NCBI RefSeq assembly: GCF_000427405.1
Contig: NZ_KE386491.1
Location: 3,662,790-3,726,789 of the forward strand
From: Flectobacillus major DSM 103
GTDB lineage: Bacteria; Bacteroidota; Bacteroidia; Cytophagales; Spirosomataceae
Length of the DNA: 64,000 nucleotides
Direction: 5' to 3'
The notes below the pieces were generated by a model. It did not search any database and had not been told where the DNA came from. It saw only the letters and a list, made by a program, of their open reading frames with translations. Position 1 is the stretch's first letter; every line of letters begins with the position of its first letter. Made by a program: the position numbers and the translations under genes. Positions 12,135 to 44,830 of the stretch are shown one piece after another.

Positions 12135-12415
12135 AAACGTGAGTCATCTCAAATTTTAAGTAATATTAAAAGAGCCCCTATTGGTGTTTGTTGGGATTTA
12201 TAACGTCGTCAAGTAAATTTTGAAGAGATTTATCAATTGCTCAAATGATAGGAATTTAGAGGGTATTCATACAAAAGGCGGTCGAAAAACAATTTTCGAC
12301 CGCCTTTTTTTATGTTAAATATCAGCATAACACATCTTTAGCCGCAAAGCATTACATCTCTACTGGTGAAAAGCATATTCAAAAATATTCACTAAATATG
12401 AAATAACTCATGTTT
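12135..12415 (+). repeat. Dispersed TIR element, copy 1 (plus orientation)
   Basis: This 281-bp non-coding element has imperfect terminal inverted repeats. It starts AAACGTGAG and ends CTCATGTTT. It fills nearly all the space between the convergent stops of the 1396-aa gene (12132) and trpA (12435). Its core hairpin has arms GGCGGTCGAAAA (12277-12288) and TTTTCGACCGCC (12293-12304) with an ACAA loop, flanked by A and T runs. It shares long stretches with copies at 17327-17592 and 44571-44830, including TTTGTTGGGAT, CTCAAATGATAG and CACATCTTTAGCC. This copy is longest, with an insertion near its right end. No ORF is conserved. Confidence 0.88.
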
Positions 12416-12434
12416 ATGATAATATTCCATATTT

Positions 12435-13211
12435 TTATGCTCCTTTAATCGCTTGTACAAAAGCCTTAATATCAGTTTGGAGATTCTTTGAAGTCGAAAC
12501 AACCTTGATAAATGCACTACCAATAATAGCCCCAGCAGCATGAGAAGAAGCTTTGACAAATGTTTCATTATCTGAAATACCAAAGCCAATCAAGCGAGGG
12601 TTAGTAAGATTCATGGCATTGATTCTAGCAAAATACTCTTCCTGAACATCCGATATTCCAGATTTTGCCCCAGTAATACTTGCCGACGAAACCATATAAA
12701 TAAAGCCAGCAGAAATAGCATCGATATGTCTGATTCGGCTTTCTGAAGTTTGAGGTGTAATCAAGAAGATATTCAAGATACCATATTTATCGAATATTGC
12801 TTTATATTCCTCTTCATAAACATCTACTGGCAAATCGGGTAAAATCAAACCATCTACGCCTACTTCTTGACATTTTTGGCAAAAGTTTTCGATCCCAAAT
12901 TGCAACACAGGATTGATATAACCCATCAAAAGTATCGGTACTTTCACAGAAGGTCGTATGCCAGCTAATTGCTCAAACAAGAGTTTGACACTCATGCCAT
13001 TGTCCAAGGCAATTTGGTTAGAAGCCTGAATGGTTTCACCATCAGCAACAGGGTCTGAGTAAGGCATACCTATTTCTACCAAATCGGCACCACTTTCGTC
13101 TAGTGCTTTTAAGACAGTGGTAGTATCGTTCAATTCAGGGTATCCTGCCGTAAAATAAACATTTAATATATTATTCTTCTTTTGTTCAAAAAGTTGTGTT
13201 ATTCTGTTCAT
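12435..13211 (-). CDS. trpA: Tryptophan synthase alpha chain
   Basis: TrpA cleaves indole-3-glycerol phosphate to indole and glyceraldehyde 3-phosphate and passes indole to TrpB. The 258-residue TIM barrel shows YFTAGYP near the N-terminus, VEIGMPYSDPVADGETIQ with the catalytic glutamate, DGLILPDLPVD with the catalytic aspartate, and VGFGIS-like IGFGISDNE. I chose the ATG at 13211 (MNRITQLFEQKK). A longer frame to 13235 would need TTG. It lies just downstream of mpl on the same strand, 72 bp apart, and is separated from trpCFB, which is unusual for this phylum. Confidence 0.96.
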   Translation of the reverse strand: MNRITQLFEQKKNNILNVYFTAGYPELNDTTTVLKALDESGADLVEIGMPYSDPVADGETIQASNQIALDNGMSVKLLFEQLAGIRPSVKVPILLMGYINPVLQFGIENFCQKCQEVGVDGLILPDLPVDVYEEEYKAIFDKYGILNIFLITPQTSESRIRHIDAISAGFIYMVSSASITGAKSGISDVQEEYFARINAMNLTNPRLIGFGISDNETFVKASSHAAGAIIGSAFIKVVSTSKNLQTDIKAFVQAIKGA

Positions 13212-13283
13212 GATTTGAGTAAAGTTCTTTTGCAAGGTAATAGAACATCATTTTTGATGCGTATTTGCCATTACCTATCCCAT

Positions 13284-14645
13284 TTATTGAAGTATTTGAT
13301 TTGAAATTTCCGCAAAATCCAGACCATTGAAAGTCCCTGACGACATCATCAGTAAATTTGATCCACGCCATCGCTTGGTCAATAAGTAGACTTTTAAGGA
13401 TTCGTTATCGGTAAATACTTCTAAATGTGGTGTACCAAAAGCAGCTTTAATTTCTTCTACCGAAATAGCAGGAAGTTTTTTGTGTTCAAGTGTTTTTGGA
13501 CTAAAATAAACTATTGCGGTGTCGGCACTATCTAATTTATGGGCATATTCTTTCAAAAAGTTCTTATTCAAACTACTAAAAGTATGTAGTTCTAAACAAG
13601 CCACTAAGTGCCGTTCGGGAAATTGGGCTTTCAGAGCTTTTGTAGTAGCTTCAACTTTGGACGGAGCATGGGCAAAATCTCGATAAAAAATAGTATGCTC
13701 GTTTTTTGCAACCAGTTCCAAACGCTTGGCAGCTCCTTTAAAAGAAGCAATAGCCTCGTAAAACTCGTCCTCTTCGATACCGATTTGACTCAACACCAAA
13801 CGAGCCCCATTAAGGTTTTTGAGGTTATGCTCACCAAAAACAGCAATTTCTAATTCTTTTTTATTAGGTAATATCAAAAAAGTCTTACCATTTTTTACTT
13901 TGGCAGGATGGGCTCTATAAGCATATTTTTGAATATCGGGATATTCGACAGCACCTATTTTAGCCACCAAGGGGTCGGTTTCATCATAAATCAAACTGCC
14001 TGACTTAGGTACATCCTGTGCCAATAGTTCAAACTGGTGTAGATAGTCTTGAAACTCGGGGAATACGTTGATATGATCCCAAGCAATACCCGAAATAAGG
14101 GCTACGTGTGGATGATAATGTAAAAACTTGGGCCTGCGGTCGATAGGCGAAGCTAAATATTCGTCACCTTCAATAACAATTACGGGAGCATCCGACAGCT
14201 TGGCCATGGTATCGAACCCTTCGATTCGAGCCCCAACCAAATAGTCAAACTTTTTATGATGGTATTGTAGCACATGAAGAATCATTGAAGTAATGGTAGT
14301 TTTTCCATGACTTCCAGCAATCACAACTCTTTGTTTATTTTGGCTTTGCAAATAGACAAACTCAGGATATGAGTAAATATTCAATCCTAATGCCTGAGCT
14401 TTTAGTAGCTCGGGGTTATCTACTCGGGCATGCATTCCTAAAATTACACAATCCAAATCACTTGAAATTTTTTCTGGAAACCAACCTATTTCGGCTGGCA
14501 AAAGGCCATTCTGAGCCAATAAACTGCGAGAAGGCTCATAAATCTCATCGTCAGAACCCGTAACCAGATAACCATTATTGTGTAGGTCGATAGCCAGATT
14601 GTGCATGGCTGCTCCTCCAATGGCAATAAAGTGAACTTTTTTCAT
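13284..14645 (-). CDS. mpl: UDP-N-acetylmuramate:murein tripeptide ligase Mpl-like Mur ligase
   Basis: Mpl re-attaches the recycled tripeptide L-Ala-gamma-D-Glu-mDAP to UDP-MurNAc in cell-wall recycling. The 453-residue protein has the Mur ligase three-domain layout. The N-terminal Rossmann part is KKVHFIAIGGAAMHNLA (UDP-sugar binding). The central ATPase has P-loop GSHGKTTITSM near residues 111-121 and VIEGDEYLAS. The C-terminal domain contains FYRDFAHAPSKVEAT. HFIAIGGAAMH rather than the MurC GIGGIGMSG pattern favours Mpl over MurC. It is followed by trpA on the same strand, with no functional link apparent. Confidence 0.88.
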   Translation of the reverse strand: MKKVHFIAIGGAAMHNLAIDLHNNGYLVTGSDDEIYEPSRSLLAQNGLLPAEIGWFPEKISSDLDCVILGMHARVDNPELLKAQALGLNIYSYPEFVYLQSQNKQRVVIAGSHGKTTITSMILHVLQYHHKKFDYLVGARIEGFDTMAKLSDAPVIVIEGDEYLASPIDRRPKFLHYHPHVALISGIAWDHINVFPEFQDYLHQFELLAQDVPKSGSLIYDETDPLVAKIGAVEYPDIQKYAYRAHPAKVKNGKTFLILPNKKELEIAVFGEHNLKNLNGARLVLSQIGIEEDEFYEAIASFKGAAKRLELVAKNEHTIFYRDFAHAPSKVEATTKALKAQFPERHLVACLELHTFSSLNKNFLKEYAHKLDSADTAIVYFSPKTLEHKKLPAISVEEIKAAFGTPHLEVFTDNESLKVYLLTKRWRGSNLLMMSSGTFNGLDFAEISNQILQ

Positions 14646-14876
14646 AGAAATTTAACTCGAACTTTCCAGCCCGAAACAATGTTTCTTAAATTAATTGTGG
14701 TTTTGTGATTGCTATGACTTTTCCAAGAAACTAAGTGGCTGATAATGAGTTGTTTTAGTACCCCAAACAGCTTTGAAAAGAGTAATAGACCATAAGTACA
14801 ACTATTTGATTATCAAACAAATACAAGTTCTTTTACAAAACAGATTATTAAATAATCATAAATCCAAATTATATTC

Positions 14877-14907
14877 TTGCAAAGGTCATACTTTTATTGC
14901 ACTTTTG
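14877..14907 (+). promoter_or_regulatory. Predicted promoter of the arginine decarboxylase transcript
   Basis: TTG (14877-14879), a 20-nt spacer and CACTTTTG (14900-14907) match the bacteroidetal TTG-N19/20-TAnnTTTG promoter except for the first base of the -7 box. A start near 14912 would put the 10-codon upstream ORF at the very 5' end of the mRNA. Confidence 0.5.
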
Positions 14908-14917
14908 CACGTTTTTT

Positions 14918-14950
14918 ATGAGTAAAACTCCGCAAGGTTATTTTCTTTGA
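14918..14950 (+). CDS. Possible 10-residue leader peptide upstream of arginine decarboxylase
   Basis: ATG AGT AAA ... TGA encodes MSKTPQGYFL. It begins a few bases after the predicted transcription start and overlaps the 5' arm (CCGCAAG, 14930-14936) of a hairpin whose 3' arm lies just after its stop. Translation of this ORF would open the hairpin, which is the geometry of attenuation leaders. It has no run of one regulatory codon, and no homologue is known to me, so it may be fortuitous. Confidence 0.35.
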   Translation: MSKTPQGYFL

Positions 14951-14973
14951 TGAAATTTCTTGCGGTTTTCGTT
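14930..14973 (+). promoter_or_regulatory. Terminator-like hairpin in the arginine decarboxylase leader
   Basis: CCGCAAG (14930-14936) pairs with CTTGCGG (14959-14965). AAAA upstream and TTTT downstream can extend the stem, and an inner ATTTT/GAAAT stem can form. The T-rich tail TTTTCGTTTC follows, so the structure could act as a conditional terminator about 75 nt before the decarboxylase ATG. Confidence 0.45.
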
Positions 14974-15044
14974 TCTTAGGACGAAGGCTCACAAACTTAA
15001 ATAATTTCCAACATAAAAACTCGCTTTATGCTTTTCGCAGTAGG

Positions 15045-16529
15045 ATGAAAAATTACATTGACCTCATTGACCAGACCATTGAGTTTCCAACTCTTGAGTT
15101 CAACATTGACGAAAACAATGAACTAATGTTCAACAATGTGCCGTTAATGGATATTATTAAGCAGTACGGTACGCCACTCAAAATCACGTATTTACCCAAA
15201 ATTGGTGAGCATATTGAAAACGCCAAGCGTATGTTCAAGAATGCTATAAAAAAGTACAATTATAAGGGCAATTATACGTATTGTTACTGTACCAAATCTT
15301 CTCATTTTAGATTTGTGGTCGAAGAGGTTCTTAGTCACAATGTTCACCTCGAAACATCTTCGTCTTTCGACATTCCTATTATTCGAAAGTTATACGATGA
15401 AGGTAAGATTTCAAAATCTACCTACATTTTATGTAATGGATACAAGCTTCCTTTGTACACGCAATATATCAGCGAATTAATCAACGAAGGATTCAATTGT
15501 ATTCCGATTTTGGATAATTTAAAAGAAATTGACTTCTACGATAAGTCTGTTACTGCCGAAACCGTTAATCTCGGTATGAGAATCGCTACAGACGAAGAGC
15601 CTGATTTTGCTTTCTATACTTCACGTTTGGGCTTACGCTACTCTGACGTGATGGATTTGTATAAAAATAAGATTCAAAACAGTGAGAAATATAAGCTCAA
15701 AATGCTTCATTTCTTTATCAATACGGGTATTAAAGACAGTGCCTATTATTGGTCTGAGTTGAGTCGCTTCATTTACAAATACTGTGAAATGAAGAAAATC
15801 TGTCCAGAGTTGGATTCTATTGACTTGGGTGGCGGTTTACCGATCCAAACGTCTCTACAATTTAATTATGACTACCAAGCCATGATTGACGAAATTGTAG
15901 AATCTATTTCTTGGATTTGTAACAAAAACAATGTGCCTGTACCAAATATCTTTACCGAGTTTGGGTCTTATACGGTTGGTGAAAGTGGTGCAGTATTGTA
16001 CGAAATTATCGACCAAAAACTCCAAAATGATAAGGAACTTTGGTATATGATTGATGGTTCGTTTATTACGCAGTTGCCAGACTCGTGGGGCATGAACCAA
16101 AAGTATATTATGTTGCCTGTTAATAACTGGGGATTCCCTTATCAGAAGGTAAACTTGGGGGGCTTAACCTGCGATTCAATGGATTTTTACAATACTGAAG
16201 CCCATAGCTCAGATTTGTATTTACCTATTTTTGAAGAAGGGCAAGAACGTCAGTTTGTTGGGTTTTTCCATACAGGAGCTTACCAAGAATCGTTGGGTGG
16301 CTACGGTGGTATCCAGCACTGTTTGATTCCTGCTCCCAAACATGTATTGGTTGACAGGCTAGAAGATGGAACTATTACAACTCAACTTTTTGCACCAGAG
16401 CAAGGTAGCGATGGTATGTTGGGTATACTAGGCTATGGCAATGCTCCTAAGCAATCTGAACCCCAACAGCTTGTTTTGACACAAGAAGACATGAAACGTG
16501 CTGAAAATCTGTCACTTGTAGAACAATAA
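15045..16529 (+). CDS. speA: Biosynthetic arginine decarboxylase (PLP fold III)
   Basis: This 494-residue enzyme belongs to the alanine-racemase-fold decarboxylases. It probably turns arginine into agmatine for polyamine synthesis. The PLP lysine is K84 in YCYCTKSSHF. SIDLGGGLPIQ binds the cofactor phosphate, and GGLTCDSMDFY is the C-D-S-x-D motif that supplies the second active-site half in the dimer. The protein is shorter than E. coli SpeA (about 660 aa) but matches the compact Bacteroidota form. Related diaminopimelate or carboxynorspermidine decarboxylases are alternatives, though the overall sequence fits arginine decarboxylase better. The leader contains a possible attenuator. Confidence 0.82.
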   Translation: MKNYIDLIDQTIEFPTLEFNIDENNELMFNNVPLMDIIKQYGTPLKITYLPKIGEHIENAKRMFKNAIKKYNYKGNYTYCYCTKSSHFRFVVEEVLSHNVHLETSSSFDIPIIRKLYDEGKISKSTYILCNGYKLPLYTQYISELINEGFNCIPILDNLKEIDFYDKSVTAETVNLGMRIATDEEPDFAFYTSRLGLRYSDVMDLYKNKIQNSEKYKLKMLHFFINTGIKDSAYYWSELSRFIYKYCEMKKICPELDSIDLGGGLPIQTSLQFNYDYQAMIDEIVESISWICNKNNVPVPNIFTEFGSYTVGESGAVLYEIIDQKLQNDKELWYMIDGSFITQLPDSWGMNQKYIMLPVNNWGFPYQKVNLGGLTCDSMDFYNTEAHSSDLYLPIFEEGQERQFVGFFHTGAYQESLGGYGGIQHCLIPAPKHVLVDRLEDGTITTQLFAPEQGSDGMLGILGYGNAPKQSEPQQLVLTQEDMKRAENLSLVEQ

Positions 16530-16545
16530 ATTTAGGGTTTTAGAG

Positions 16546-16574
16546 TTGTGCATGAAGAGATATTTGTAAATTTG
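16546..16574 (+). promoter_or_regulatory. Promoter of the small lipoprotein gene
   Basis: TTG (16546-16548), an 18-nt spacer and a perfect TAAATTTG -7 box (16567-16574) stand 47 bp before the ATG at 16622. The promoter sits directly after the arginine decarboxylase stop, so the small gene is probably transcribed independently. Confidence 0.55.
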
Positions 16575-16621
16575 TTGTAAGATTCTCAATTGTATCAAAC
16601 TTTAATCATTTATATATCCTC

Positions 16622-16750
16622 ATGAAAAGAGCTTCCATTATTTTAGGTATGCTGGCTTTGGTAGCTTTGGCATCTTGTGGTAGAAAAAACAACTGCCCTG
16701 CTTACGGTACTACAAGCATCGATAAGCCTGCTTACAAGGGTAGAAACTAA
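16622..16750 (+). CDS. 42-residue lipoprotein with CPAYG motif
   Basis: This short gene encodes a 42-residue protein: a type II signal sequence with lipobox LASC (cysteine at residue 19), then a short mature part of about 24 residues containing the motif NNCPAYG and a basic end. Tiny lipoproteins with a C-P-A-Y motif are, as I recall, common in Bacteroidota, and their function is unknown. A promoter box precedes the gene and a terminator hairpin follows, so it appears to be a self-contained unit. It is easily missed because of its size. Confidence 0.75.
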   Translation: MKRASIILGMLALVALASCGRKNNCPAYGTTSIDKPAYKGRN

Positions 16751-16770
16751 GATTTCATAAATTTCTATAA

Positions 16771-16808
16771 AAGCTGTATTACGCAAATTTTGTGTGATAC
16801 AGCTTTTT
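16771..16808 (+). terminator. Terminator after the small lipoprotein gene
   Basis: AAGCTGTAT pairs with ATACAGCTT, an inner ACGCAAA/TTTGTGT stem is also possible, and a T run follows. It lies 20 bp after the stop codon. Confidence 0.8.
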
Positions 16809-16875
16809 ATTTGCTATTTCTTGACAATAGTAAAAAATACTTAGTTATGGGAACAAATTATATTGGTTTTAACGT

Positions 16876-16914
16876 TTGCAATATTGTTGCATTGTATTAA
16901 TTTTGCAACAACAT
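16876..16914 (+). promoter_or_regulatory. merC-like promoter overlapped by a palindromic operator
   Basis: TTG (16876-16878), a 19-nt spacer and TAATTTTG (16898-16905) form a canonical bacteroidetal promoter. The palindrome TGCAATATTGTTGCA (16877-16891) lies on and after the -33 box. A second, inverted copy of the half-site (TTGCAACAACATT, 16902-16914) covers the -7 box and start site. This arrangement suggests repression by a Fur/Zur-type regulator, because such palindromes rich in TGCAA/TTGCA are typical of that family. The regulator's identity is inference. Confidence 0.55.
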
Positions 16915-16921
16915 TACAAAT

Positions 16922-17305
16922 ATGAATCATTCGCACGCACATACGTTCAAAATGGAAAAGGTAGGTTTCTACCTTTCGGTACTTTGTGCAATACATTGTA
17001 TTGCTACGCCTGTTGTTGTTACAATATTGCCTTATCTTGGTAGTAAATTATTCCATGACCACTCGTGGGAAATTTGGTTTATTGGCGGAAGCTTAGTTTT
17101 GGCTGGTGTAATTTTGTATAATGATTACAAAAAACACCATGCAAAGTTGCCTTTTGTACTATTACTGGGTAGTCTCTTTATCAAAGTACTTGAGTTTGTA
17201 TGGATAGGCGAACAATACGAATTTATTACAGGAACATTAGGTGCTTTGTTTATCGCATTGGCCTACTATTTCAATTGGAAATATAAATCTGCTTGTAATT
17301 GCTAA
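16922..17305 (+). CDS. MerC-domain inner-membrane protein
   Basis: The 127-residue protein has about four membrane helices and fits the MerC family (mercury or metal uptake-like proteins). The N-terminus is His-rich (MNHSHAHTF). The first helix carries the paired metal-binding motif CAIHCIATPVV (C-x3-C near residues 24-28), and the C-terminus ends CNC. In Bacteroidota, MerC-like proteins often accompany Fur-family regulators and are probably linked to zinc or other metal homeostasis rather than mercury resistance (inference). No mer genes are nearby. The palindromic promoter supports metal control. Confidence 0.8.
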   Translation: MNHSHAHTFKMEKVGFYLSVLCAIHCIATPVVVTILPYLGSKLFHDHSWEIWFIGGSLVLAGVILYNDYKKHHAKLPFVLLLGSLFIKVLEFVWIGEQYEFITGTLGALFIALAYYFNWKYKSACNC

Positions 17306-17326
17306 AAGCAAGCCTTATAGATAGCC

Positions 17327-17592
17327 AAATATGAGTAATCCCGAATTTAATGAAGGTGTAATTATTTTTGAAGATGCTTTGTGGCTAAAGATGTGTCATT
17401 CTAATATTTAACATACAAAAGGCGGTCGAAAATTGTTTTTCGACCGCCTTTTGTATGAATACCTACTAAATTTCTATCATTTGAGTAAATGATAAGCCTC
17501 TTCAATGTTCTCTTGACGACCTGATGAATCCCAACAAACACAAATAGGGGGTCTCTTTTAATATTACTTAAAATTCGGAATGCCTCATGTTA
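17327..17592 (-). repeat. Dispersed TIR element, copy 2 (minus orientation)
   Basis: This 266-bp copy is inverted relative to copies 1 and 3. Its ends read AAATATGAG on the left and CTCATGTTA on the right. The terminal repeats of this copy match each other at positions where they differ from copy 3 (CCGAATTT here, CCCAAATTT there). The core hairpin (17421-17448) has perfectly paired 12-nt arms plus an outer CATACAAAA/TTTTGTATG stem. It lies between the convergent stops of the merC-like gene (17305) and the outer-membrane protein gene (17739). The remaining 146 bp before 17739 are featureless AT-rich DNA. Confidence 0.88.
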
Positions 17593-17738
17593 GTGTTACT
17601 TATACGAATATTCCAAGCACACAATTAGTATTCATCCATTAGTTAATTATAATAGATACTGAGCCCAAATAACTATTTATCACTCTATTCCCAATGTTAT
17701 ATAAAATGCTTACAGTCCTTCATAATACGTCTATTTAG

Positions 17739-18368
17739 TTACTTAAATGTAATACCTAACCGCACAACCATTCTATTGAATTTCATATCATTTTCCATAA
17801 TAGAAGGAAACTCTTCCGTACCTTGGTTTTGAAAACTTTTTACACGGTTATGCTTGTATCCAACACTCAGGGTAAACTTGGCATTTCCTCCTGTTGGAAT
17901 CAATAATCCTATTTGTGGATTAAGATTGACACCTCCATCGATAGTTTGATTGGGGAGTTCGTCGCTGAGCCAAGTCAATCCATAGCCAGCATCGATACCC
18001 AAAAACGGTTGAATGGATTTTGACAGTGGATTATTACCAATAGGCTTGCGAATACCCAACGACACAGGTAATATTTGATAAGCACTATACCAATCTACCC
18101 CCACTGTAGCCCCAATAGCCCAATTTTTGTATATTTCTATACCGTTAAAGGTTTGCATAGTAAAATTGGTGCTAGCCTTTACAGGATAACTGTACATATA
18201 AGAATTAGAGATATTATATGCCTTGCCAAACAACGCCCCGACCTCGGTATAATTCACAAAGTGATGCTTCAAGAATTCTCTGCCAGCTTTGGGGTCTTTT
18301 TGCTGACCAATAGCCATATATGAGCCTATACAGCAAAAAAAGAATACTTTTTTGAAGAAATTTTCCAT
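17739..18368 (-). CDS. Outer-membrane beta-barrel protein
   Basis: The 209-residue protein has a signal peptide (KKVFFFCCIGSYMAIG) and many short alternating strands with glycine and aromatic residues (TVGVDWYSAYQI, FLGIDAGYGLTW), ending in the barrel-like strand MVVRLGITFK. This is typical of small 8-strand outer-membrane proteins. No specific family is recognised. It is the last gene of the minus-strand unit that starts with the ECF sigma factor, 14 bp after the LVIVD gene, so it is probably a structural member of the same surface system. Confidence 0.7.
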   Translation of the reverse strand: MENFFKKVFFFCCIGSYMAIGQQKDPKAGREFLKHHFVNYTEVGALFGKAYNISNSYMYSYPVKASTNFTMQTFNGIEIYKNWAIGATVGVDWYSAYQILPVSLGIRKPIGNNPLSKSIQPFLGIDAGYGLTWLSDELPNQTIDGGVNLNPQIGLLIPTGGNAKFTLSVGYKHNRVKSFQNQGTEEFPSIMENDMKFNRMVVRLGITFK

Positions 18369-18382
18369 CTGTATAGCTAGGT

Positions 18383-19675
18383 TTATTGAGCAGATTTAAC
18401 TTTTATAACACTTAGTAACTTTAAATTTGTTTTGTCGGTATAATCATATTGGTACAATCCTTCTTTGCCAATAACCATAAGGATATTATTGAGCGGAATT
18501 ACGTCAAAAGCATTAATATCCTTGAAATGTTGTTGGAGTTTAATATCGAGAGGATTACTAGCATCAAACGATTTCAAGCCCTTATTTCCTTCACAAATAA
18601 ATAAGCTTGCGTTATCTATACCCAATCCATAGGGGTTTTCCATAGCAAAGGTTTTCTTCAATACAGGCGATGTGGGTACTGTTACATCTATTACATCCAA
18701 CTGATTGTTGATAGCTGGCCCACATGCACCGAAAACATTTACCGAACGTAAAGTTACATAAGCCATATCGTTTTGTACTACGACGGGGTCGCAGGCTCTG
18801 GCGTGTTCGAGGCGAGACAGAAACTTGGGGTTATAGGGGTCTTTATTACTCCAAATTTGTAGTCCAGTAGTTGTACCTATAAACAGGTTGTCTTTATATG
18901 GAAAAATTGTTTCTATGCCAAAACCTAGTTTTACGGTAGTTTCCATAGTAGGTTGAGCAGGGTTTTTGAGCCCAAAGAGTTTCATATCTTCGCTCGACAC
19001 AGCATATAATAAATTATTACTGATGGTAAAACGAGCCATCGACCCACCTTTTCCAGTTACGGAAGAACCATTCTGAGTAAAGCTTGTCGAAAACGATTTA
19101 TCTAGGGCATAAGGATAATAAGACCAATAAGGGTAATAAATAGGTTGTAAATCACAAGAGATTTCTTGGGAAACAGTAGTTTTTTTCCATTCTCCATCTA
19201 CGATTTTTTTCAAGTCTACATTATAATACCATGTTATGCCATCGATTGTCCCAGACTTGAAGACATCTGATACACGACCGAGCTCTTTGATATTGCGAGG
19301 GTCGTTAATATCTATGGCTACCATATCGGTATAGCTGTCGGCATACAGAATATTGTCTTGTACAGCTATATCTACATTTCCTAGGATCTCGATAAAGGCT
19401 ATATTCAAGGGAGCTTTAGCATTGGTATTATCAATAATATGAATACCTTTTTTTAATTCATTAATAAACAAAAAATTCCCTTTGATATAAATTTTACCAG
19501 GTTTTTCGAGGTCACGAGCAGTTGCCGATTTGATAGAATTACGAATATTAGCGATGTCAATCTGGGTAGACTGTACACTCATATAGGTACTTGTTTGTAC
19601 ACACTTGTCCTTACAGGCCAACAGAAATCCACTCAGTATTGTTAGCAACAATACCTTACTTATTGTTTTTACCAT
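18383..19675 (-). CDS. LVIVD-repeat lipoprotein
   Basis: This 430-residue lipoprotein has a type II signal sequence (LLTILSGFLLAC, cysteine at residue 21). It consists of LVIVD-type beta-propeller repeats, for example KIYIKGNFLFINELKKGIHI, VDIAVQDNILYADSYTDMVA and the later GIETIFPYKDNLFIGTTTGL. Such propellers are surface or periplasmic and of unknown ligand. It follows the 129-residue lipoprotein by 28 bp and precedes the barrel protein by 14 bp, so the genes are very probably co-transcribed under the ECF sigma unit. Confidence 0.85.
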   Translation of the reverse strand: MVKTISKVLLLTILSGFLLACKDKCVQTSTYMSVQSTQIDIANIRNSIKSATARDLEKPGKIYIKGNFLFINELKKGIHIIDNTNAKAPLNIAFIEILGNVDIAVQDNILYADSYTDMVAIDINDPRNIKELGRVSDVFKSGTIDGITWYYNVDLKKIVDGEWKKTTVSQEISCDLQPIYYPYWSYYPYALDKSFSTSFTQNGSSVTGKGGSMARFTISNNLLYAVSSEDMKLFGLKNPAQPTMETTVKLGFGIETIFPYKDNLFIGTTTGLQIWSNKDPYNPKFLSRLEHARACDPVVVQNDMAYVTLRSVNVFGACGPAINNQLDVIDVTVPTSPVLKKTFAMENPYGLGIDNASLFICEGNKGLKSFDASNPLDIKLQQHFKDINAFDVIPLNNILMVIGKEGLYQYDYTDKTNLKLLSVIKVKSAQ

Positions 19676-19703
19676 GACTATAATGTGTTTTTAATGGACA
19701 GTT

Positions 19704-20093: not shown

Positions 20094-20106
20094 AGGGTTT
20101 TATATT

Positions 20107-20616: not shown

Positions 20617-20691
20617 AATAGTGTTTGTTATATTAAATACAAATCATAGCAATATTACCTTCTTAGAGCCGCTACTTATATAAAACCAAGC

Positions 20692-21336: not shown

Positions 21337-21412
21337 TATAATGACTTTGTCTGTAAATTTTTCTTCATATAATCCATGCTATGCTACTGAGTACTGATAC
21401 AATAGCGATCAA

Positions 21413-21952: not shown

Positions 21953-22161
21953 TGTCTATGAAGTATTTTTAAAGGGCTTATGGATTTTCAATTATACAAG
22001 TTTTCGTACTAAAATCCCATTGGGGGGATTTTTATACTACTCCTTTATACTAAAGACCACTTGGCCATAGATTAGGTTGGAATTTATTTAATTTTTTTTT
22101 GAAAACCATCAAATTTACAATCACTTAGCTCAATGAACCCATTCCATCACAAGCTTTTTAC

Positions 22162-22169: not shown

Positions 22170-22249
22170 TGCTTCAATATGCAACGAGGCTCTTGGCTTG
22201 TTATTATTTTAACATTACCATGAATCCTACAAACTGAAACTTTTATTCT

Positions 22250-35465: not shown

Positions 35466-35475
35466 TAACAAAACC

Positions 35476-35859: not shown

Positions 35860-35877
35860 TACCACAAAAGCATTTTT

Positions 35878-35922
35878 ATCAAAAAGGGTTACAATCGATG
35901 ATTCATTGTAACCCTTTTTGAT
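35878..35922. terminator. Bidirectional terminator
   Basis: An 18-bp stem (35878-35895 with 35905-35922), core AAGGGTTACAAT/ATTGTAACCCTT, has A and T runs on both sides. It lies between the convergent lipoprotein and GH3 genes. Confidence 0.88.
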
Positions 35923-35940
35923 TATTGCTTAAACTGCTTA

Positions 35941-37425: not shown

Positions 37426-37529
37426 AATATTTTTAATGATTTGAAATACATCCAGTTGAGTTTAACAAGCTCAGAAGGCTTTGGGAAAACCCCTTGTTGA
37501 ATCCTTCTTGAAGCCAAAACTTTGTCAAT

Positions 37530-38102: not shown

Positions 38103-38125
38103 AAATTTTATATTTGTATTCATGA

Positions 38126-38133
38126 CAAAGTTA
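38126..38133 (-). promoter_or_regulatory. Candidate -7 box of rnhB
   Basis: Minus-strand TAACTTTG, an exact -7 consensus, lies 23 nt before the chosen rnhB start. There is no -33 TTG at standard spacing. Confidence 0.4.
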
Positions 38134-38161
38134 AGAGCAATAAATTGGTTTGATATTTGTA

Positions 38162-38356
38162 ATGAATAAAGAATACCCTAATAAAAACCATATTCTTTTA
38201 CAAAAACCAATTTTGGAAAGTACAAGGATGATTTCAGATGATATTTTCGTCATAGAAACTACCAGAGATTCCCTTAATCATATAAGAAAAATACAATTAA
38301 CCCTTGGCATGATTTATGCTTTAAATTCACCTGAGAATTTAGTTGTTAGCTCATAA
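38162..38356 (+). CDS. Small hypothetical protein
   Basis: An ATG-initiated 64-codon ORF lies alone between rnhB and the PorE-like gene. The product is soluble and mixed alpha/beta in appearance (FVIETTRDSLNHIRKIQLTL), with no signal peptide or known motif. Codon use looks ordinary, but length and lack of recognisable homology leave it doubtful. Confidence 0.35.
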   Translation: MNKEYPNKNHILLQKPILESTRMISDDIFVIETTRDSLNHIRKIQLTLGMIYALNSPENLVVSS

Positions 38357-38427
38357 AATTGACAAAATAGTAGCATCAATTTGATGAAGATTTCTGGCTA
38401 AAATTTCAAATTTAAGAAATTTAGACA

Positions 38428-40908
38428 ATGCCTAAGATAAAAAAAATTGGAATCACATTCATTCTGACCGCTATTTTATGTGTACCAATAGTAGCTCAGA
38501 CCAACAACTCCTTACTCAAAGATGCTATCCGCCATTTTGAGCTATCGAGCTTTGTTACTGCCATACCCAAATTTGAACAAGTTCTTCAAAAGGATTCTGC
38601 TCAACTCTCTTCTTCCGAACGATTTGCTACATTATTACAACTAGCATATAGTTATAAACAGGTGCAAAATATGCCCAAAGCCGAATCAACGTATCGGCAA
38701 GCTTTGGATATTCCTGTATCGGTATCGGGCGACCAACTCAAATCATATCTTTATTTTGCCCAAGTATTGGTCAATAATAACAAATACAAAGAGGCTCAAG
38801 AATGGTTTGATAAGTACAATACACTCAGCTCTACTCTTAGCGAAAGCACCATAAGTTCTCGCACCAATCTAGCCAACGATGTTAGTGCTTTGTATAATAC
38901 CAATGCCAAATACTTGGTCGAATATCTTAGCTTTAATACCAACAAGCCAGAGTTTAGCCCGATGTATTATAAAAATGGCCTCGTATTCTGTTCTGGAAAA
39001 GGCTCAGGTAGTGGCCTTACAGGCAACAAAGGGTATTTGGATTTATACTACCTCAGCGATTTGGCACAGTTATCGGGGATTTCAGAAGACGAATTGGATG
39101 TCAAGAAAACCCCAAAAACAACCTCCAATACTGGAGATAAAAGGTTAGGAAAAGACTTTTATACCCGTTTTACAGCCAATGATTCAAAAACATTGAATTT
39201 TTTCGATATTCCTTCTACTGAAACAGTTACTGTAACTCCCAAAGGTAAAATTGCAGAATCCGAAGTTTTTAGCAAAACTCTCAATACAAAATTTCATGAA
39301 GGGCCTGCTACTTTTAGTAGCGATTTTTCAAAAATTATCTTTACCCGAAACAATTATAACGACGGCGAACAAGGTAAAAGTGAAGATAACGTAACAAAGC
39401 TAAAACTCTATATAGCTAATTTTGAAAATGGGGGTTGGGGCGAAGCTCAAGAATTACCATTCAATAGCGACGACTTTTCGACAGCTCACCCTGCTTGGTC
39501 AAAAGATGGGAAATATTTATACTTTGCCTCTGACCGCAAAGGAGGATTTGGCGGTATGGACATCTGGGTGGTCGAATACAATAATGGCAAATGGGGAAAC
39601 CCCGTTAACCTTGGCAAAGATATTAATACAAAAGGAACAGAAGTATTCCCTTTTGTTGATGATCGTGGCAATCTGTATTATTCATCCGACGGCCTCAAAG
39701 GACAAGGAGGCTTAGATATTTTTTGGGTAGAAACCCAAAATGGTTTGGCCACCAAAAAGCCTTTTAATATCGGCGAACCATTCAATTCTGTCAACGATGA
39801 TTTTGGTATTATTACCGATACAGAAAGAAAAACAGGCTATTTCAGCAGCGATAGACGACGCGGCGAGGATGATGATATTTATCGCTTTAGCCGACAAACA
39901 TCGTTGTACTCTTGCCGAGAGATGACCGTTAGTGTTTATGACAGCGAAACAAAAACTGCTATTGCCAATGCCAACATAGAACTAGAAATTAAAGGTGGAA
40001 CTAATGAAAAATACCAATCTGATGATTTGGGAACGGTAAAGTTTTGTATTGGCCGAGATTTGGACTATGTTATTGGTATCAAAAAAGAAGGTTATACCTC
40101 CAACTATTTAGGGTATTCAAGTAAAGGCGAAGCCGACAATGCTCCTTCTCGCCTAGAAATACCTTTAATGCGACTTGTTATGACCGAACCTATTTCCGAA
40201 AAACCTATCAAGGCAGATACCATCACCCCTACTAAGCCTAGCATACCAACAGTCGGTAAATCCGATAAAAGCTCGCTATTGAAGGGGGTTATAAAAACCG
40301 AAATTGAGAAAATCCCGATAGAAGGTGTTTTGGTAACATTTAGAAATGAATGTAACAATACCACACAGCAAGTAGTAACAGGAGCCGACGGGGTCTATGC
40401 TTTTGAAATGGAAGACGGATGTGACTATACATTGGAGGTTTCAAAAGACGGATACGGCAAGAAAGTCAACAAAATTACCAAAGTAGCCAAGAAAGGAAAA
40501 AACAGTGAAATTTCTCAAGACTTAGGCTTGTTTAAAGAAGGAGATGTTATTACTATGGATAATATCTATTACGACAAAGGTAGTGCCAAAATCAGAAAAG
40601 ATGCTGCTCGTGAGTTAGACAAATTAGCAGCTACCTTAATGAAAAACCCAACGATGGTTATCGAAATAGGCTCACATACCGATAGCCGAGGCGATGCTCA
40701 GGTAAACCTCAACTTATCTACTCGCCGAGCTCAAACAGCTGTAGATTATATTGCTAGCAAGGGAATTGAAAGAAATAGAATGTTGGCAAAAGGATATGGC
40801 GAAACAGCCTTGGTAAACGAATGTGCCGACGGCGTAAGTTGTACCGAGCTAGAACATCAAAAAAATAGAAGAACTACCGTAAAGTTTATTAAAGCAAAAG
40901 TAGAATAG
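38428..40908 (+). CDS. PorE-like OmpA protein with TPR, PD40 and carboxypeptidase-regulatory domains
   Basis: An 826-residue exported protein with a type I signal peptide ending near VPIVAQ (residue 26). TPR repeats follow (about 30-150), then PD40/WD40-like blades (GKYLYFASDRKGGFGGMDIW, GNLYYSSDGLKGQGGLDIFW), two carboxypeptidase-regulatory-like folds (about 500-570 and 615-690) and a C-terminal OmpA peptidoglycan-binding domain (DNIYYDKGSAKIRKDAA, IGSHTDSRGDAQ, NRRTTVKFI). This layout matches PorE, which links the T9SS to peptidoglycan, and other Bacteroidota OmpA proteins. A related lipoprotein lies at 46258-48252. A palindromic terminator overlaps its stop. Confidence 0.88.
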   Translation: MPKIKKIGITFILTAILCVPIVAQTNNSLLKDAIRHFELSSFVTAIPKFEQVLQKDSAQLSSSERFATLLQLAYSYKQVQNMPKAESTYRQALDIPVSVSGDQLKSYLYFAQVLVNNNKYKEAQEWFDKYNTLSSTLSESTISSRTNLANDVSALYNTNAKYLVEYLSFNTNKPEFSPMYYKNGLVFCSGKGSGSGLTGNKGYLDLYYLSDLAQLSGISEDELDVKKTPKTTSNTGDKRLGKDFYTRFTANDSKTLNFFDIPSTETVTVTPKGKIAESEVFSKTLNTKFHEGPATFSSDFSKIIFTRNNYNDGEQGKSEDNVTKLKLYIANFENGGWGEAQELPFNSDDFSTAHPAWSKDGKYLYFASDRKGGFGGMDIWVVEYNNGKWGNPVNLGKDINTKGTEVFPFVDDRGNLYYSSDGLKGQGGLDIFWVETQNGLATKKPFNIGEPFNSVNDDFGIITDTERKTGYFSSDRRRGEDDDIYRFSRQTSLYSCREMTVSVYDSETKTAIANANIELEIKGGTNEKYQSDDLGTVKFCIGRDLDYVIGIKKEGYTSNYLGYSSKGEADNAPSRLEIPLMRLVMTEPISEKPIKADTITPTKPSIPTVGKSDKSSLLKGVIKTEIEKIPIEGVLVTFRNECNNTTQQVVTGADGVYAFEMEDGCDYTLEVSKDGYGKKVNKITKVAKKGKNSEISQDLGLFKEGDVITMDNIYYDKGSAKIRKDAARELDKLAATLMKNPTMVIEIGSHTDSRGDAQVNLNLSTRRAQTAVDYIASKGIERNRMLAKGYGETALVNECADGVSCTELEHQKNRRTTVKFIKAKVE

Positions 40909-40934
40909 AGAGCAAATTGCTCTCTATTCTACTT
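40898..40934. terminator. Bidirectional terminator overlapping a stop codon
   Basis: AAGTAGAATAGAGAGCAA (40898-40915) is exactly complementary to 40917-40934. It begins inside the last codons of the PorE-like gene and ends within the last codons of the convergent aquaporin gene, which it overlaps by two bases. Confidence 0.7.
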
Positions 40935-41634
40935 ATATATAGGCAATAATTAGTCCGCCAATAATAGCCCCCACCACAGGCCCCACCACAGGAACCCAAG
41001 CATATCCCCAGTCGGAAGTTCCTTTCCCTTCGATAGGCAACAAAGCGTGTGCAATACGAGGCCCTAAGTCTCTGGCAGGGTTAATAGCATAACCCGTTGT
41101 ACCTCCAAGCGACAACCCTATGGCCCATACCAATAAGCCCACAGCATACGGCCCTAGCTGGTTGGGTATACTTGGTAATGCCCCAAGTGCAATGATAAAT
41201 AGAACTGTAGCAAGTAGTTCGCTCAGAATGTTTGCTACGAGGTTTCGGATAGCAGGTGCTGTCGAAAAACAAGCTAATTTTAGCCCTTTGTCTTCTGTAT
41301 GTGTCCAATGTGGCAAATAATGTAGCCAAACCAATGTTGCACCAAGAATTGCTCCTGCAATTTGAGCAACAATAAAATAAAGGGCATTTGCCCAATCGCC
41401 TGTTTTGGTAGCCATAGCTACAGTTACGGCAGGATTCAAATGGGCAGCAGGACTACCAAAGGCTGTCGAAACAAAAATGCTAATAGTTACAGCCATAGCC
41501 CATCCTGTGGCAATAACCATCCAGCCAGCTCCCTCTCCTTTCGAGCCTTTCAATAATACATTGGCGACCACACCATTGCCTAAATATACTAATACTGCAG
41601 TACCGATTAATTCGCCTAAGATAGCCGATTGCAT
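40933..41634 (-). CDS. Aquaporin / glycerol facilitator
   Basis: A 233-residue MIP-family channel with six membrane helices. The two pore motifs are HLNPAVTVAMA and INPARDLGPR. The aspartate after the second NPA (NPARD) and the overall loop lengths favour a glycerol-conducting channel (GlpF type), though water permeation is also possible. The ATG at 41634 (MQSAILGELIGTAVLVYLGN) starts at the first helix. The longer frame to 41673 would need TTG. No glpK or glpD gene is in the window, and ruvB is divergent. Confidence 0.93.
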   Translation of the reverse strand: MQSAILGELIGTAVLVYLGNGVVANVLLKGSKGEGAGWMVIATGWAMAVTISIFVSTAFGSPAAHLNPAVTVAMATKTGDWANALYFIVAQIAGAILGATLVWLHYLPHWTHTEDKGLKLACFSTAPAIRNLVANILSELLATVLFIIALGALPSIPNQLGPYAVGLLVWAIGLSLGGTTGYAINPARDLGPRIAHALLPIEGKGTSDWGYAWVPVVGPVVGAIIGGLIIAYI

Positions 41635-41918
41635 AGTTGTTTGGTTTTGATAAAGGTTTCTTATTCTTTCCAAATTAAAGTACCAATTAATGCCATACAG
41701 CTCCTTGTTTATTGTGTATCGAGGCTATACTTAATATTTTAATATTGTTTAGAATATTTTGCACAAATTAAAGAAAAAACTTTTACCATTCTTAGTTTTT
41801 TAAAGACAATTCGCTGGTATTTGGTAAGACATTACCAACAAAGTTGAAAAAGATGTATTTTTGAGTTAAAACCATTTGAAGACCATTTTTCACTAACCTA
41901 GTGAAATCAAGATATATC

Positions 41919-42944
41919 ATGCGAGAAGATTATTTAAAAGGGAATAAAGAAAACCTATCTCCTGTCGAGAAAGAAATAGAACGTGCGTTACGCCCCTTAT
42001 CGTTCGACGATTTTGCGGGGCAAGATAAAGTATTGGACAACCTCAAGGTATTTGTTAAGGCTGCTAAACAACGAGAAGAAGCCCTCGATCATGTGCTATT
42101 ACACGGCCCTCCAGGTTTGGGAAAAACAACTTTATCTAATATTGTAGCCAATGAGCTTGAGGCTAATATCAAGATTACCTCTGGGCCAGTATTAGACAAA
42201 CCTTCTGATTTGGCTGGATTGCTTACCAATCTTCAGCCTTTCGATGTACTATTTATTGATGAAATTCACCGTCTTAACCCTATTGTTGAAGAGTATCTAT
42301 ATTCTGCTATGGAGGACTATAAGATAGATATTTTGCTAGATTCGGGGCCCAATGCTCGAAGTGTACAAATTTCACTCAATCCCTTTACCTTAATCGGAGC
42401 TACCACACGAGCAGGATTACTAACTGCCCCTTTGCGTGCTCGTTTTGGTATCAATGCTCGCTTAGAATACTACGATGCCAAATTATTGACTTCTATTGTA
42501 CAGCGTTCGTGTCAAATACTTGGTACGCCTATTGACAACGAAGGTGCATACGAAATAGCTCGAAGAAGTAGAGGCACACCTCGTATTGCTAATAACCTAC
42601 TCAGACGAACCCGCGACTTTGCCCAAGTAAAAGGCAATGGCCGTATTACCGTAGCAATAGCTGAAATGGCTTTGCAGGCTCTGGATGTAGACCAAAATGG
42701 ATTGGATGAAATGGATAATAGAATATTGAGTACTATTATCGAAAAATTCAAAGGTGGACCTGTTGGGTTATCAACTATTGCAACTGCTTGTGGAGAAGAA
42801 GCCGAAACAATCGAAGAGGTTTATGAGCCTTTTTTGATTCAAGAAGGCTTTTTGAAACGAACTTCACGTGGACGAGAAGCAACCGAAAAAGCCTATATCC
42901 ATCTGGGAGTTGTTCCCAAATATCGTACAGGAGAACTATTTTAA
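41919..42944 (+). CDS. ruvB: Holliday junction DNA helicase RuvB
   Basis: RuvB is the hexameric AAA+ motor that drives branch migration of Holliday junctions with RuvA. The 341-residue protein has [19 protein letters not shown], Walker [12 protein letters not shown], Walker [10 protein letters not shown], sensor 1 [10 protein letters not shown] and the arginine-finger region [15 protein letters not shown], then a winged helix ([17 protein letters not shown]). I chose ATG 41919 (MREDYLKG). An upstream GTG at 41901 adds six residues. ruvA is absent from the window. Confidence 0.97.
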
Positions 42945-42962
42945 ACAATATTTTTTGTCTTC

Positions 42963-42997
42963 AAAACCTTGATATATACCAATCATATCAAGGTTTT
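42963..42997 (+). terminator. Terminator after ruvB
   Basis: AAAACCTTGATAT pairs with ATATCAAGGTTTT and is followed by T residues, 19 bp past the stop. Confidence 0.85.
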
Positions 42998-43081
42998 TTG
43001 CTTTAAAAAGCTTTGTCAAACGTCCCTAAAGCCCCTTATCATTGTCAAATACCACAAAAACTTGTCTGATACCCCATTCAT

Positions 43082-43112
43082 TTGTAGGTATCTAGGTCAT
43101 GGTATACTTTTG
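43082..43112 (+). promoter_or_regulatory. Promoter of the DUF2306-like gene
   Basis: TTG (43082-43084), a 20-nt spacer and TACTTTTG (43105-43112) give a full match to the bacteroidetal promoter. The ATG follows 32 nt downstream. Confidence 0.55.
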
Positions 43113-43144
43113 TTTCAAGCTTTTATCAAACAAATAATAAAAAC

Positions 43145-43819
43145 ATGATTATGAAGACAATCCTAAGCGGTGCATTATTCATCCACATCTTATCGGGTTT
43201 TTTAGCCTTAATTGTTGGCTTAGTAGCTATGATAGCAAAAAAAGGAGGAAAAACACATGTCATTTGGGGCAAAGTATATTATTATGCTATGATGAGTGTA
43301 GCAATCACAGCTCTTATTCGGTTTCAGATGGAAGTACGCTTAATATTTTTGGGGTGTATTGCCATTTTTAGTTTTTATAACACCTTTACAGGCGTTAGGC
43401 TTATCCGTATGAAAAGGGGTATCCAGCCTACGGCACTAGACTGGACAGGAGCTATCATTGCTCTTTTAGGAGCATTAGTAATGTTAGGTTTTGGAATTTG
43501 GGCATTTAGCAAAGGAATTACCTTCTACTTTGTATTATTTTTTGTATTTGGTGCATTCTCAATGGCACTTGCAGTACAAGACTTATTGGTTTTTATAGGA
43601 AAAAAGAAGGTAGAAAATATCCATTGGCTACTCAATCACATTAGCAGAATGGGAGGCTCGTATATTGCTACGGTAACAGCTTTTTTGGTTGTTAACAACC
43701 ATGAGGTTTTACCTCCGCTAGTAGCTTGGCTAGCTCCAGGTGCAATTGGAGGGGCTATAATTGCCAGAACAAGAGCCTATTACAAGCAAAAAATGACCTT
43801 AAAATTAAAAAATAATTAG
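43145..43819 (+). CDS. DUF2306-like integral membrane protein
   Basis: A 224-residue protein with about six to seven membrane helices (first helix ALFIHILSGFLALIVGLVAM). It contains the family-like segment KGGKTHVIWGKVYYYAM, conserved histidines (HILSG, HWLLNHISRMGGS) and a late helix SYIATVTAFLVVN. This resembles the DUF2306 membrane proteins of Bacteroidota, whose function is unknown. It has its own promoter and is followed 76 bp later by an outer-membrane protein gene. A second ATG two codons downstream is equally plausible as the start. Confidence 0.75.
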   Translation: MIMKTILSGALFIHILSGFLALIVGLVAMIAKKGGKTHVIWGKVYYYAMMSVAITALIRFQMEVRLIFLGCIAIFSFYNTFTGVRLIRMKRGIQPTALDWTGAIIALLGALVMLGFGIWAFSKGITFYFVLFFVFGAFSMALAVQDLLVFIGKKKVENIHWLLNHISRMGGSYIATVTAFLVVNNHEVLPPLVAWLAPGAIGGAIIARTRAYYKQKMTLKLKNN

Positions 43820-43895
43820 TTTTATTTTTTGGTTTGGTAGTTATAAACGTTAGATTTTATCTTTACCGCATCTCTAACTTATATCATCTACCTAT

Positions 43896-44564
43896 ATGCG
43901 TTATTCATTTACCTTATTATTTCTACTCACGTCTATTTGTGGCTTTTCTCAATTCCAAAAAAGCAGGAATATCTTTAGAATGGGATTGCGAAATACTACA
44001 ATACAAGGCACTAGCATGATTCAAGGCAATATGCAGGTAAAGCCTGTCTTTGATTGTGGTTATGGCCATAACTATCCTATTAGCAATAAGGTTAGTTTTC
44101 AGCCTGAGATTCATTATAGTGTACGAGGTTTTGCCAAAAAATTACCTCATAGCGATTCTACATATTATAAAACAACCACAGGAATCCACTACTTAGATTT
44201 TTCGCCTAACTTTTCATTGACGATAGGCCCATCAGGGGTGGGCCGCAATCCCTTACATATATGGGGTGGGCCATATATTGGGTATGGCCTCTGGGGAGGT
44301 TTTCATACCAAAGGTCAATATCTTAATCAAGAAACGGGCTTGGCCGATAGTACAGTTACTACATCTGAGAGTGCCTTCAATAAGGTTAAAAGACTAGACT
44401 TTGGAATAAATGCAGGGATAGGCATTCAGTTTGACAGGTTTACCCATTTTGGAATCACTTGTAGTCAAGGCTTAGTAGACATATCGAAAAATAGTTCATC
44501 TCAGCCTTGGAAAACCTTTACACTCGGTTTTTATTTGACCTTCATTTTTGACGATATGTTTTAA
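43896..44564 (+). CDS. Outer-membrane beta-barrel protein
   Basis: A 222-residue protein with a signal peptide (YSFTLLFLLTSICGFSQ) and a series of amphipathic strands (MGLRNTTIQGTSM, VSFQPEIHYSVRGFAKKL, LHIWGGPYIGYGLWGG, FGINAGIGIQFD), ending in the strand FTLGFYLTFIF with a terminal aromatic residue. This fits the outer-membrane beta-barrel (PorT-like) fold without a specific function. A dispersed repeat begins 7 bp after its stop. Confidence 0.72.
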   Translation: MRYSFTLLFLLTSICGFSQFQKSRNIFRMGLRNTTIQGTSMIQGNMQVKPVFDCGYGHNYPISNKVSFQPEIHYSVRGFAKKLPHSDSTYYKTTTGIHYLDFSPNFSLTIGPSGVGRNPLHIWGGPYIGYGLWGGFHTKGQYLNQETGLADSTVTTSESAFNKVKRLDFGINAGIGIQFDRFTHFGITCSQGLVDISKNSSSQPWKTFTLGFYLTFIFDDMF

Positions 44565-44570
44565 TGGCAG

Positions 44571-44830
44571 AAACATGAGTCGTCCCAAATTTTGAGTAAT
44601 GTTAAAAGCGACTTCCTATTTGTGTTTGTTGGGATTCATCAGGTCGTTAAGAGAATATTGAAGAGGCTTAACAATTGCTCAAATGATAGGAATTTAGTGG
44701 ATATTCATAAAAAAGGCGTTCGGAAAACAATTTCCGAACGCCTTTTTTATGATCAGAATTACACATCTTTAGCCGCAAAGCATCTTCAAAAGTAATCACT
44801 CATTCACTAAATTTGGGATGCCTCATGTTT
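44571..44830 (+). repeat. Dispersed TIR element, copy 3 (plus orientation)
   Basis: This 260-bp copy has the cleanest ends. AAACATGAG at the left and CTCATGTTT at the right are the outer parts of an imperfect inverted repeat of about 29 bp (CCCAAATTT on one side, AAATTTGGG on the other). The core hairpin arms are GGCGTTCGGAAA (44715-44726) and TTTCCGAACGCC (44731-44742), so two pairs differ from copies 1 and 2 yet stay complementary. It exactly fills the gap between the convergent stops at 44564 and 44836. An ORF crossing it (44592-44795) is not preserved in the other copies. Confidence 0.9.

Follow-up and report, generated by a model that had tools for sequence, protein, structure and literature searches.

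Terminator-like miniature elements behind stop codons in Flectobacillus major and an insertion sequence that probably targets hairpins

Results and discussion

Three copies of an element between facing genes

A stretch of 64,000 nucleotides from Flectobacillus major DSM 103 (contig NZ_KE386491.1, positions 3,662,790 to 3,726,789; the window) contains three copies of a short element with a strong hairpin, each lying between two genes that face each other (Table 1). These copies probably are miniature inverted-repeat transposable elements (MITEs) that carry a bidirectional terminator and are moved by a hairpin-targeting insertion sequence (IS), which replaces or duplicates terminators. The three align over their full length and have terminal inverted repeats in each, bearing out the three alignable copies with shared ends described in a first-pass annotation of the window. 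Its placement of all three between facing genes, at mostly short distances, holds as well, five of the six sides being short (2 and 19 bp to the stop codons for copy 1, 21 and 146 bp for copy 2, 6 and 5 bp for copy 3). The hairpins have perfect arms and 4-nt loops, and on either strand they fold with -25.5 to -34.8 kcal/mol (z -7.7 to -11.5). An A tract and a T tract lie inside the arms. Copy 3 folds as a whole (z -8.5), its ends pairing with each other. No Rfam family reached its gathering threshold in a scan of the window.

Nine of the 47 gaps between genes in the window are convergent, and the element occupies three of these nine. Five of the other six carry unrelated hairpins (one spanning stop codons), and in the remaining gap (35860-35940) no hairpin reached the threshold. 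Facing genes in the window thus usually have a strong hairpin between them, and the element supplies one.

The family in the genome and in relatives

A search of the window genome (G000, 6.22 Mb) with copy 3 returned 93 match rows and 152 candidates (40 scored). The ends of the element are AAACATGAGTCATCCCGAATTT and its complement and form 22-bp terminal inverted repeats. A 21-base end pattern, allowing up to three mismatches, was matched 89 times in forward and 95 times in reverse orientation (184 matches; control 0 and 0). Seventy-one copies were examined, comprising 30 from the copy 3 search and 41 in 40 loci around other end matches; these loci were drawn from a listing of 100 of the 184 places, and the 71 belong to the better-matching copies and are not a random draw. 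Flank tests used 55 of 59 automatic end pairs, four having been dropped as wrong pairings, and 16 approximately bounded loci were added to these 55 to give the set of 71.

Between the ends lie variable fillers and, in 62 of the 71 copies, a strong GC-rich hairpin that is central or adjoins either end. The end pairs span 62 to 325 bp. The copies are thus short, non-coding, bounded by terminal inverted repeats and dispersed in large number, as is usual of MITEs; a few chance open reading frames (ORFs) of 62-69 codons overlap them. For five single-ended copies, which were followed in the search for an autonomous copy, no partner end lay within the fetched stretch. Two copies (L058:2054-2115, 62 bp; L243:1522-1575, 54 bp) consist of barely more than both terminal repeats. 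A second hairpin type, with arms like GTGCTTTTTTCCAATAGGGTG and its complement and a longer loop, occurs between the same ends in L041, L052, L054 and L077, and in three of these four it stands in for the GC hairpin. The fillers of L014 and L022 contain a palindromic word like GTAGAGACGCAATGC...GCATTGCGTCTCTAC, which is present elsewhere too in gaps of relatives.

The end pattern is matched at least once in 50 of 121 genomes of the bacterial family, and ten or more times in 14; genomes with one or two matches may owe these to chance, because the reversed control gives 11 matches in all. A genome of another genus (G056) has 117 end matches and numerous copies with zero-mismatch repeats. The end pattern is without match in G004, a genome of the same genus with just 7 orthologues on the compared stretch (median 71% identity), so that this lineage either lost the family or never acquired it.

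Copies lie just after stop codons

The 71 copies are distributed over 50 convergent, 20 tandem and one divergent gap (ORFs called crudely), and the convergent share greatly exceeds the window baseline of 9/47 gaps (Fisher p 6.8e-8). The 38 paired convergent copies are separated from the stop codons by a median of 16.5 bp, the distance being 30 bp or less on 58 of their 76 sides. Most tandem copies (17/20) are nearer to the preceding stop codon than to the following start. The placement rule is a position just after a stop codon, not convergent gaps alone. The earlier claim that the element is found 'only' between convergent genes had to be corrected, because 21 of 71 copies lie in tandem or divergent gaps. 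The sole copy in a divergent gap (L064:2038-2160) is without a strong hairpin. No second hairpin (score >=9) was found between stop codon and element in the 38 paired convergent copies, where most gaps are too short for one.

The same bias recurs in orthologous gaps of three closely related genomes (proteins 97-98% identical at the median), with the family hairpin in 16/37 convergent, 4/146 tandem and 0/41 divergent gaps (Fisher p 3.8e-11). All seven sites that differ between these species are convergent.

A partner insertion sequence with the same ends

In F. longus (G001), ends with 0 or 1 mismatch form two pairs with a spacing of 1.45 kb, which enclose transposase ORFs of 404 and 364 codons. 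The partner IS measures 1468 bp, and both its ends are without mismatch to the MITE consensus; within it, no hairpin reached the threshold of the scan. A match to an IS-derived MITE, which the first-pass annotation had named as telling against its own account, was therefore found, in the form of an IS with the same ends in relatives.

The transposase homologue of Flectobacillus sp. BAB-3569 (G003; 447 codons) matches Pfam DDE_Tnp_1 at 2.2e-6 (28 bits, cut-off 23), and this cut-off is reached by two of three intact homologues. Residues D129, D231 and Y349-R352-E356-K363, corresponding to the DDE and YREK motifs, are invariant in all six aligned transposases. The spacing Y-2-R-3-E-6-K around the catalytic E is the YREK signature of the IS4 family. 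Models for IS4, IS701, IS1380 and IS1634 were matched by the 447-codon protein below their cut-offs. NCBIfam IS4 models gave 20.8-50.9 bits, with cut-offs of 115-250. Because the curated cut-offs of the IS4 family are not reached, we label the transposase IS4-like and not IS4. The 404-codon transposase has a weak match to Tn5 transposase, the six PDB matches with E no higher than 1 all being to this transposase or its inhibitor (E ~5e-4). No IS1182 model was among the matches at E<=0.001, from a library whose content of such a model was unchecked.

At E<=1e-10 the transposase was matched in 8 of 16 genomes, including G003, many of whose 32 match rows lie at contig ends, and G119, with 25 rows, and was not matched in the window genome, G004, G005, G016, G056, G068, G071 and G094. 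The window genome and G056 thus contain MITEs without a detected transposase of the partner IS group. In G016 and G118 the end patterns cluster by contig ends, as for a collapsed multi-copy IS; G118 has the transposase.

Flanks and positions were scored for 22 distinct IS copies with both ends, 17 of them in G119. Eight lie in convergent gaps, 12 in tandem gaps, one in a divergent gap and one is one-sided, and 13 of the 22 are no more than 24 bp from a stop codon.

Hairpins replaced and hairpins duplicated

A filled site was compared with its empty counterparts in a convergent gap of F. longus that contains a complete MITE of 217 bp. At this place Cellulophaga sp. BC115SP (G002) has a 30-bp perfect hairpin between flanks that are the same bar one base, and BAB-3569 has a similar naked hairpin between more diverged flanks, the hairpin-bearing gaps of the two relatives being 50 and 58 bp long. 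An IS copy on contig C5 of F. longus gives a second case, as BAB-3569 has a 34-bp perfect hairpin there; the right flank is homologous over 520 bp at 88%. This right flank was not found in BC115SP. An empty site was also sought for an IS copy of BAB-3569; F. longus gave no match, and the match in BC115SP was weak and partial.

Two IS copies in G119, a genome of another genus, show the other outcome. One lies between two exact 19-bp direct repeats, the other between two exact 45-bp direct repeats, and each repeat constitutes a whole palindromic hairpin.

A short target duplication of fixed length was not convincingly seen in the 55 copies with tested flanks, exact repeats being as frequent as in permuted flanks. 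The best of 176 settings of an approximate test gave z 2.9, and any flank repeat of at least 5 bp at 80% occurred in 2/55 copies. Ten MITEs of G056 with ends of 0 or 1 mismatch gave a target repeat in 0/10; seven of the ten are convergent. The MITE label therefore rests on the ends and the partner IS, and a short target duplication is likewise absent in IS1272. Insertion into the loop of a target hairpin was considered and rejected, since complementary flanks score 7 or more in 4/55 copies with 1.9 expected, and the mean is not raised (p 0.29).

Covariation and loop inversion

The arm differences reported in the first-pass annotation (two paired changes and an outer-stem change of C-G to A-T) are present. 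An alignment of 54 of the 62 hairpins of the window genome (53 distinct; 8 that were hard to align by length were left out by hand) has 94.6% of its cells paired, and both sides have changed in 12 of 20 pairs. The covariation score is 0.282. Shuffles gave 0.095, none of 500 being as high, and slid controls did not exceed 0.039; kinship among the copies is not corrected for by the shuffles. At the trpA site, BAB-3569 and F. longus have near-identical filler by the hairpin, and three stem pairs differ between them, each on both sides.

A closer look at the loops revealed that they can be turned round. Among 55 informative orthologous hairpins the loop was scored as inverted in 10, four of these exactly, and the inversions fall on 5/10 hairpins with the family core in convergent gaps versus 5/45 of all others. 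One of the five inverted family-core loops (S2 32549) belongs to a bare hairpin with the family core and no filler. Hairpins without the family core also show loop inversion (5/42 informative orthologous hairpins, L169-L227). A filler tree built from 39 of 42 type-I copies requires 11 changes of loop orientation, of which at least four are forced by well-supported branches; 26/36 inner branches are open and 7/62 hairpins are ambiguous in loop. Orientation is not clustered on this tree (shuffled mean 13.1 changes).

Loop inversion together with multiple paired changes has been proposed as a footprint of template switching, and in the rRNA data of the same study, in its available text, a compensatory change plus loop inversion is extremely rare (PMC8794818). 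Our observations suggest that DNA template switching between the arms contributes, besides RNA selection. The covariation had earlier been taken as selection on structure. It is real; because loop inversion suggests copying of arms at the DNA level, however, it does not gauge RNA selection alone.

Interpretation and alternatives

At the sequence level there are a family with shared ends, a partner IS, a post-stop position, covariation and loop inversion, together with one MITE-for-hairpin replacement, one IS-for-hairpin replacement and two duplications of a whole hairpin. We consider it probable that the MITEs carry a bidirectional terminator and owe their mobility to an IS that targets hairpins, replacing or duplicating terminators. 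The IS4-like DDE transposase, encoded by its IS with the same ends, would move the MITE in trans. It would target terminator hairpins, probably as extruded cruciforms or as hairpins of single-stranded DNA. The element would be joined at the feet of the target hairpin, which would often be lost, so that the element replaces it, and would sometimes be copied, leaving the whole hairpin as a flanking direct repeat. The MITE's own hairpin, a predicted two-way terminator, would be neutral between converging genes and costly ahead of genes. Since the MITE brings this terminator with it, a convergent gap would keep termination in both directions, and copies would therefore persist there and beside stop codons; the nearness of the IS to stop codons would follow from hairpin targeting. 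The excess of the convergent share of MITEs (50/71) over that of IS copies (8/22) would be the part due to selection. A portable bidirectional terminator and a non-autonomous mobile element had been put forward as alternatives in the first-pass annotation, and both appear to apply together. The idea that the element is merely tolerated in convergent gaps is probably wrong, as the two filled/empty comparisons and the two whole-hairpin duplications indicate hairpin-directed insertion.

Several observations weigh against this interpretation. Just two filled/empty comparisons are clean, one for a MITE and one for an IS. In the latter, on C5, ~10-14 bp support the left junction, because F. longus has a further insertion upstream. 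At two further sites with a naked hairpin in one relative, the element in another lacks a good pair of terminal repeats, and one of these sites retains some of the native A tract. Twenty of the 22 IS copies show neither a hairpin duplication nor any notable adjoining direct repeat. An empty site is known for just one of these 20, and three or more of them are decayed, with stops in the transposase. Native-looking hairpins lie 26 bp outside L240 (G056) and 16 bp outside L242 (G068), both in other genera. The window genome is without a transposase match, so that mobilisation of the MITE by the partner IS is inferred from identical ends in relatives, and G016 has the ends and no match to the partner transposase, so another IS may share them. 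The strong GC hairpin is absent from 9/71 copies. Moreover, when 12000-17800 was searched for terminators with a simple scan, copy 1 was called on the + strand only and copy 2 on neither strand, with 4 sites in total versus 3.6 in shuffles.

The hairpins beside L240 and L242 would suit an ordinary MITE that inserts anywhere and is purged by selection except behind stops, where its hairpin stops transcription and a redundant native terminator decays. Purging also fits the near absence of copies from divergent gaps and their abundance in convergent ones, and it is the explanation given for the pneumococcal repeat SPRITE in the available text of its description (PMC3049150). At the MITE site of F. 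longus, however, the native hairpin is exchanged at its feet between flanks that are near-identical to those of a relative with 98% identical proteins. Slow decay is disfavoured there because the exchange is too exact. Two IS copies, furthermore, duplicate an entire hairpin and nothing more, and the IS, in which no hairpin reached the scan threshold, nevertheless lies close to stop codons in 13/22 copies. We therefore regard purging as an unlikely account of the placement.

It is very improbable that the copies are host-kept bidirectional terminators spread by recombination or gene conversion, with terminal repeats that belong to an RNA or DNA structure. Several orthologous gaps are filled in all genomes compared, by fillers that diverge, the ends of copy 3 pair when it folds whole, and the 55 copies are without fixed-length target duplication, all of which this account would accommodate. 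Yet there is an IS that has identical ends and encodes a DDE transposase, zero-mismatch-repeat copies are numerous in another genus (G056), and near repeat-only copies (L058 and L243) are as expected of transposase recognition sites. Template switching at palindromes could by itself make the covariation and the arm symmetry, the hairpin having no selected function. The inverted loops at 10/55 informative hairpins (5/10 with the family core in convergent gaps), the 11 orientation changes on the 39-copy tree and the description of loop inversion as a template-switching footprint (PMC8794818, available text) speak for it. The strong GC hairpin, however, is kept in 62/71 copies while filler and length vary, and 5/6 element-free convergent gaps of the window carry unrelated hairpins, so that a hairpin there seems usual. 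Template switching alone seems improbable to us on these grounds, though a little less so than host-kept terminators.

More tentatively, and short of what we would call probable, the transposase may read DNA shape, one IS group performing both replacement and duplication; the MITEs may then be terminator-exchange cassettes for many convergent gene pairs of the genus, and their palindromes a record of template switching. An IS4-like case with both outcomes would suggest that shape-directed targeting is wider among DDE transposases. MITEs that carry the displaced signal would explain low harm at gene ends and terminator turnover, and the loop inversions would provide natural cases bearing on how paired changes come about in stems, which is an open question.

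Comparison with known systems

Hairpin replacement and terminator-like repeats are already known, from IS1272 and SPRITE respectively, as far as the available texts show. New insertions of IS1272, of the IS1182 family, target stem-loops of unrelated sequence and replace them without a short target duplication, and four insertions very near genes were all just downstream of these genes (PMC5678879). In the scheme of its authors, the outcome depends on the foot of the stem-loop at which joining occurs: at one foot the stem-loop is lost, at the other the whole of it is duplicated (PMC5678879). In the available text of that paper, the case for hairpin-replacing transposition is built on IS1272 and its composite transposons, with a remark that concerns other members of the IS1182 family (PMC5678879). 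The Flectobacillus elements resemble IS1272, so described, in standing at the place of a relative's now-missing stem-loop (one MITE, one IS). They differ in the IS4-like transposase, in hairpin duplication that is actually seen in two copies, and in MITEs that bear a predicted terminator.

SPRITE of Streptococcus pneumoniae is a small terminator-like repeat enriched in convergent gaps near 3' ends, for which the available text reports no target duplication found (PMC3049150). Its ends are AAAA/TTTT only, and the same text gives 30 copies in the studied strain, no similar-ended IS found and no empty site available (PMC3049150). The ends of the Flectobacillus element, unlike those of SPRITE in this description, are 22 bp long and shared with an IS, and empty sites show hairpin exchange.

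The partner transposase is like the IS4 family (IS4, Tn5/IS50, IS10) in carrying the YREK signature. A target duplication of fixed length is typical of that family; here none is seen, and the NCBIfam IS4 cut-offs are far off. REP/BIME are likewise intergenic palindromes, often at 3' ends. Unlike REP/BIME with their RAYT (Y1) transposase, the present family has a DDE partner and long terminal repeats, and Y1_Tnp (PF01797) had zero matches in the window genome, having been detected in 5/14 control genomes. An identity with REP/RAYT was rejected on these zero matches. A literature search covering few subscription journals and no ISfinder found neither this family nor its IS4-like partner, an observed hairpin duplication or a terminator-for-terminator exchange, and no terminator-targeting IS besides IS1272.

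Window sites and their orthologues

The trpA genes nearest to that beside copy 1 are those of Cellulophaga sp. BC115SP, Flectobacillus sp. BAB-3569 and F. longus LYT7W (85-87% identity), and the orthologous gap holds related elements in three genomes of the Flectobacillus group. The gap of the naked comparison hairpin at 6473..6522 has family elements in three relatives, one of them without hairpin. In the convergent gaps L188-L207 of the three close relatives, other inverted repeats of the short words GAATTGTGAATC and TTTGAAGATTTGAAAATG occur and vary between relatives.

Table 1. Positions of the three element copies, their parts and one comparison hairpin in the window.
Feature	Position	Strand	Remarks
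MITE copy 1	12135..12415	+	281 bp; flanked by 1396-aa ORF 7942-12132(+) and trpA-like gene 12435-13235(-)
Left terminal inverted repeat, copy 1	12135..12156	+	3 mismatches vs consensus
Right terminal inverted repeat, copy 1	12394..12415	-	5 mismatches
Bidirectional terminator-like hairpin, copy 1	12273..12308	.	16-bp arms; simple scan calls + strand terminator-like
MITE copy 2, inverted	17327..17592	-	266 bp; flanked by ORFs 16922-17305(+) and 17739-18368(-)
Hairpin, copy 2	17412..17457	.	21-bp arms; loop ATTG on +, CAAT in copy 1 orientation
MITE copy 3	44571..44830	+	260 bp; flanked by ORFs 43896-44564(+) and 44836-46173(-)
Left terminal inverted repeat, copy 3	44571..44592	+	2 mismatches
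Right terminal inverted repeat, copy 3	44809..44830	-	2 mismatches
Hairpin, copy 3	44705..44752	.	22-bp arms
Comparison site, naked hairpin	6473..6522	.	23-bp arms, without terminal repeats; convergent gap

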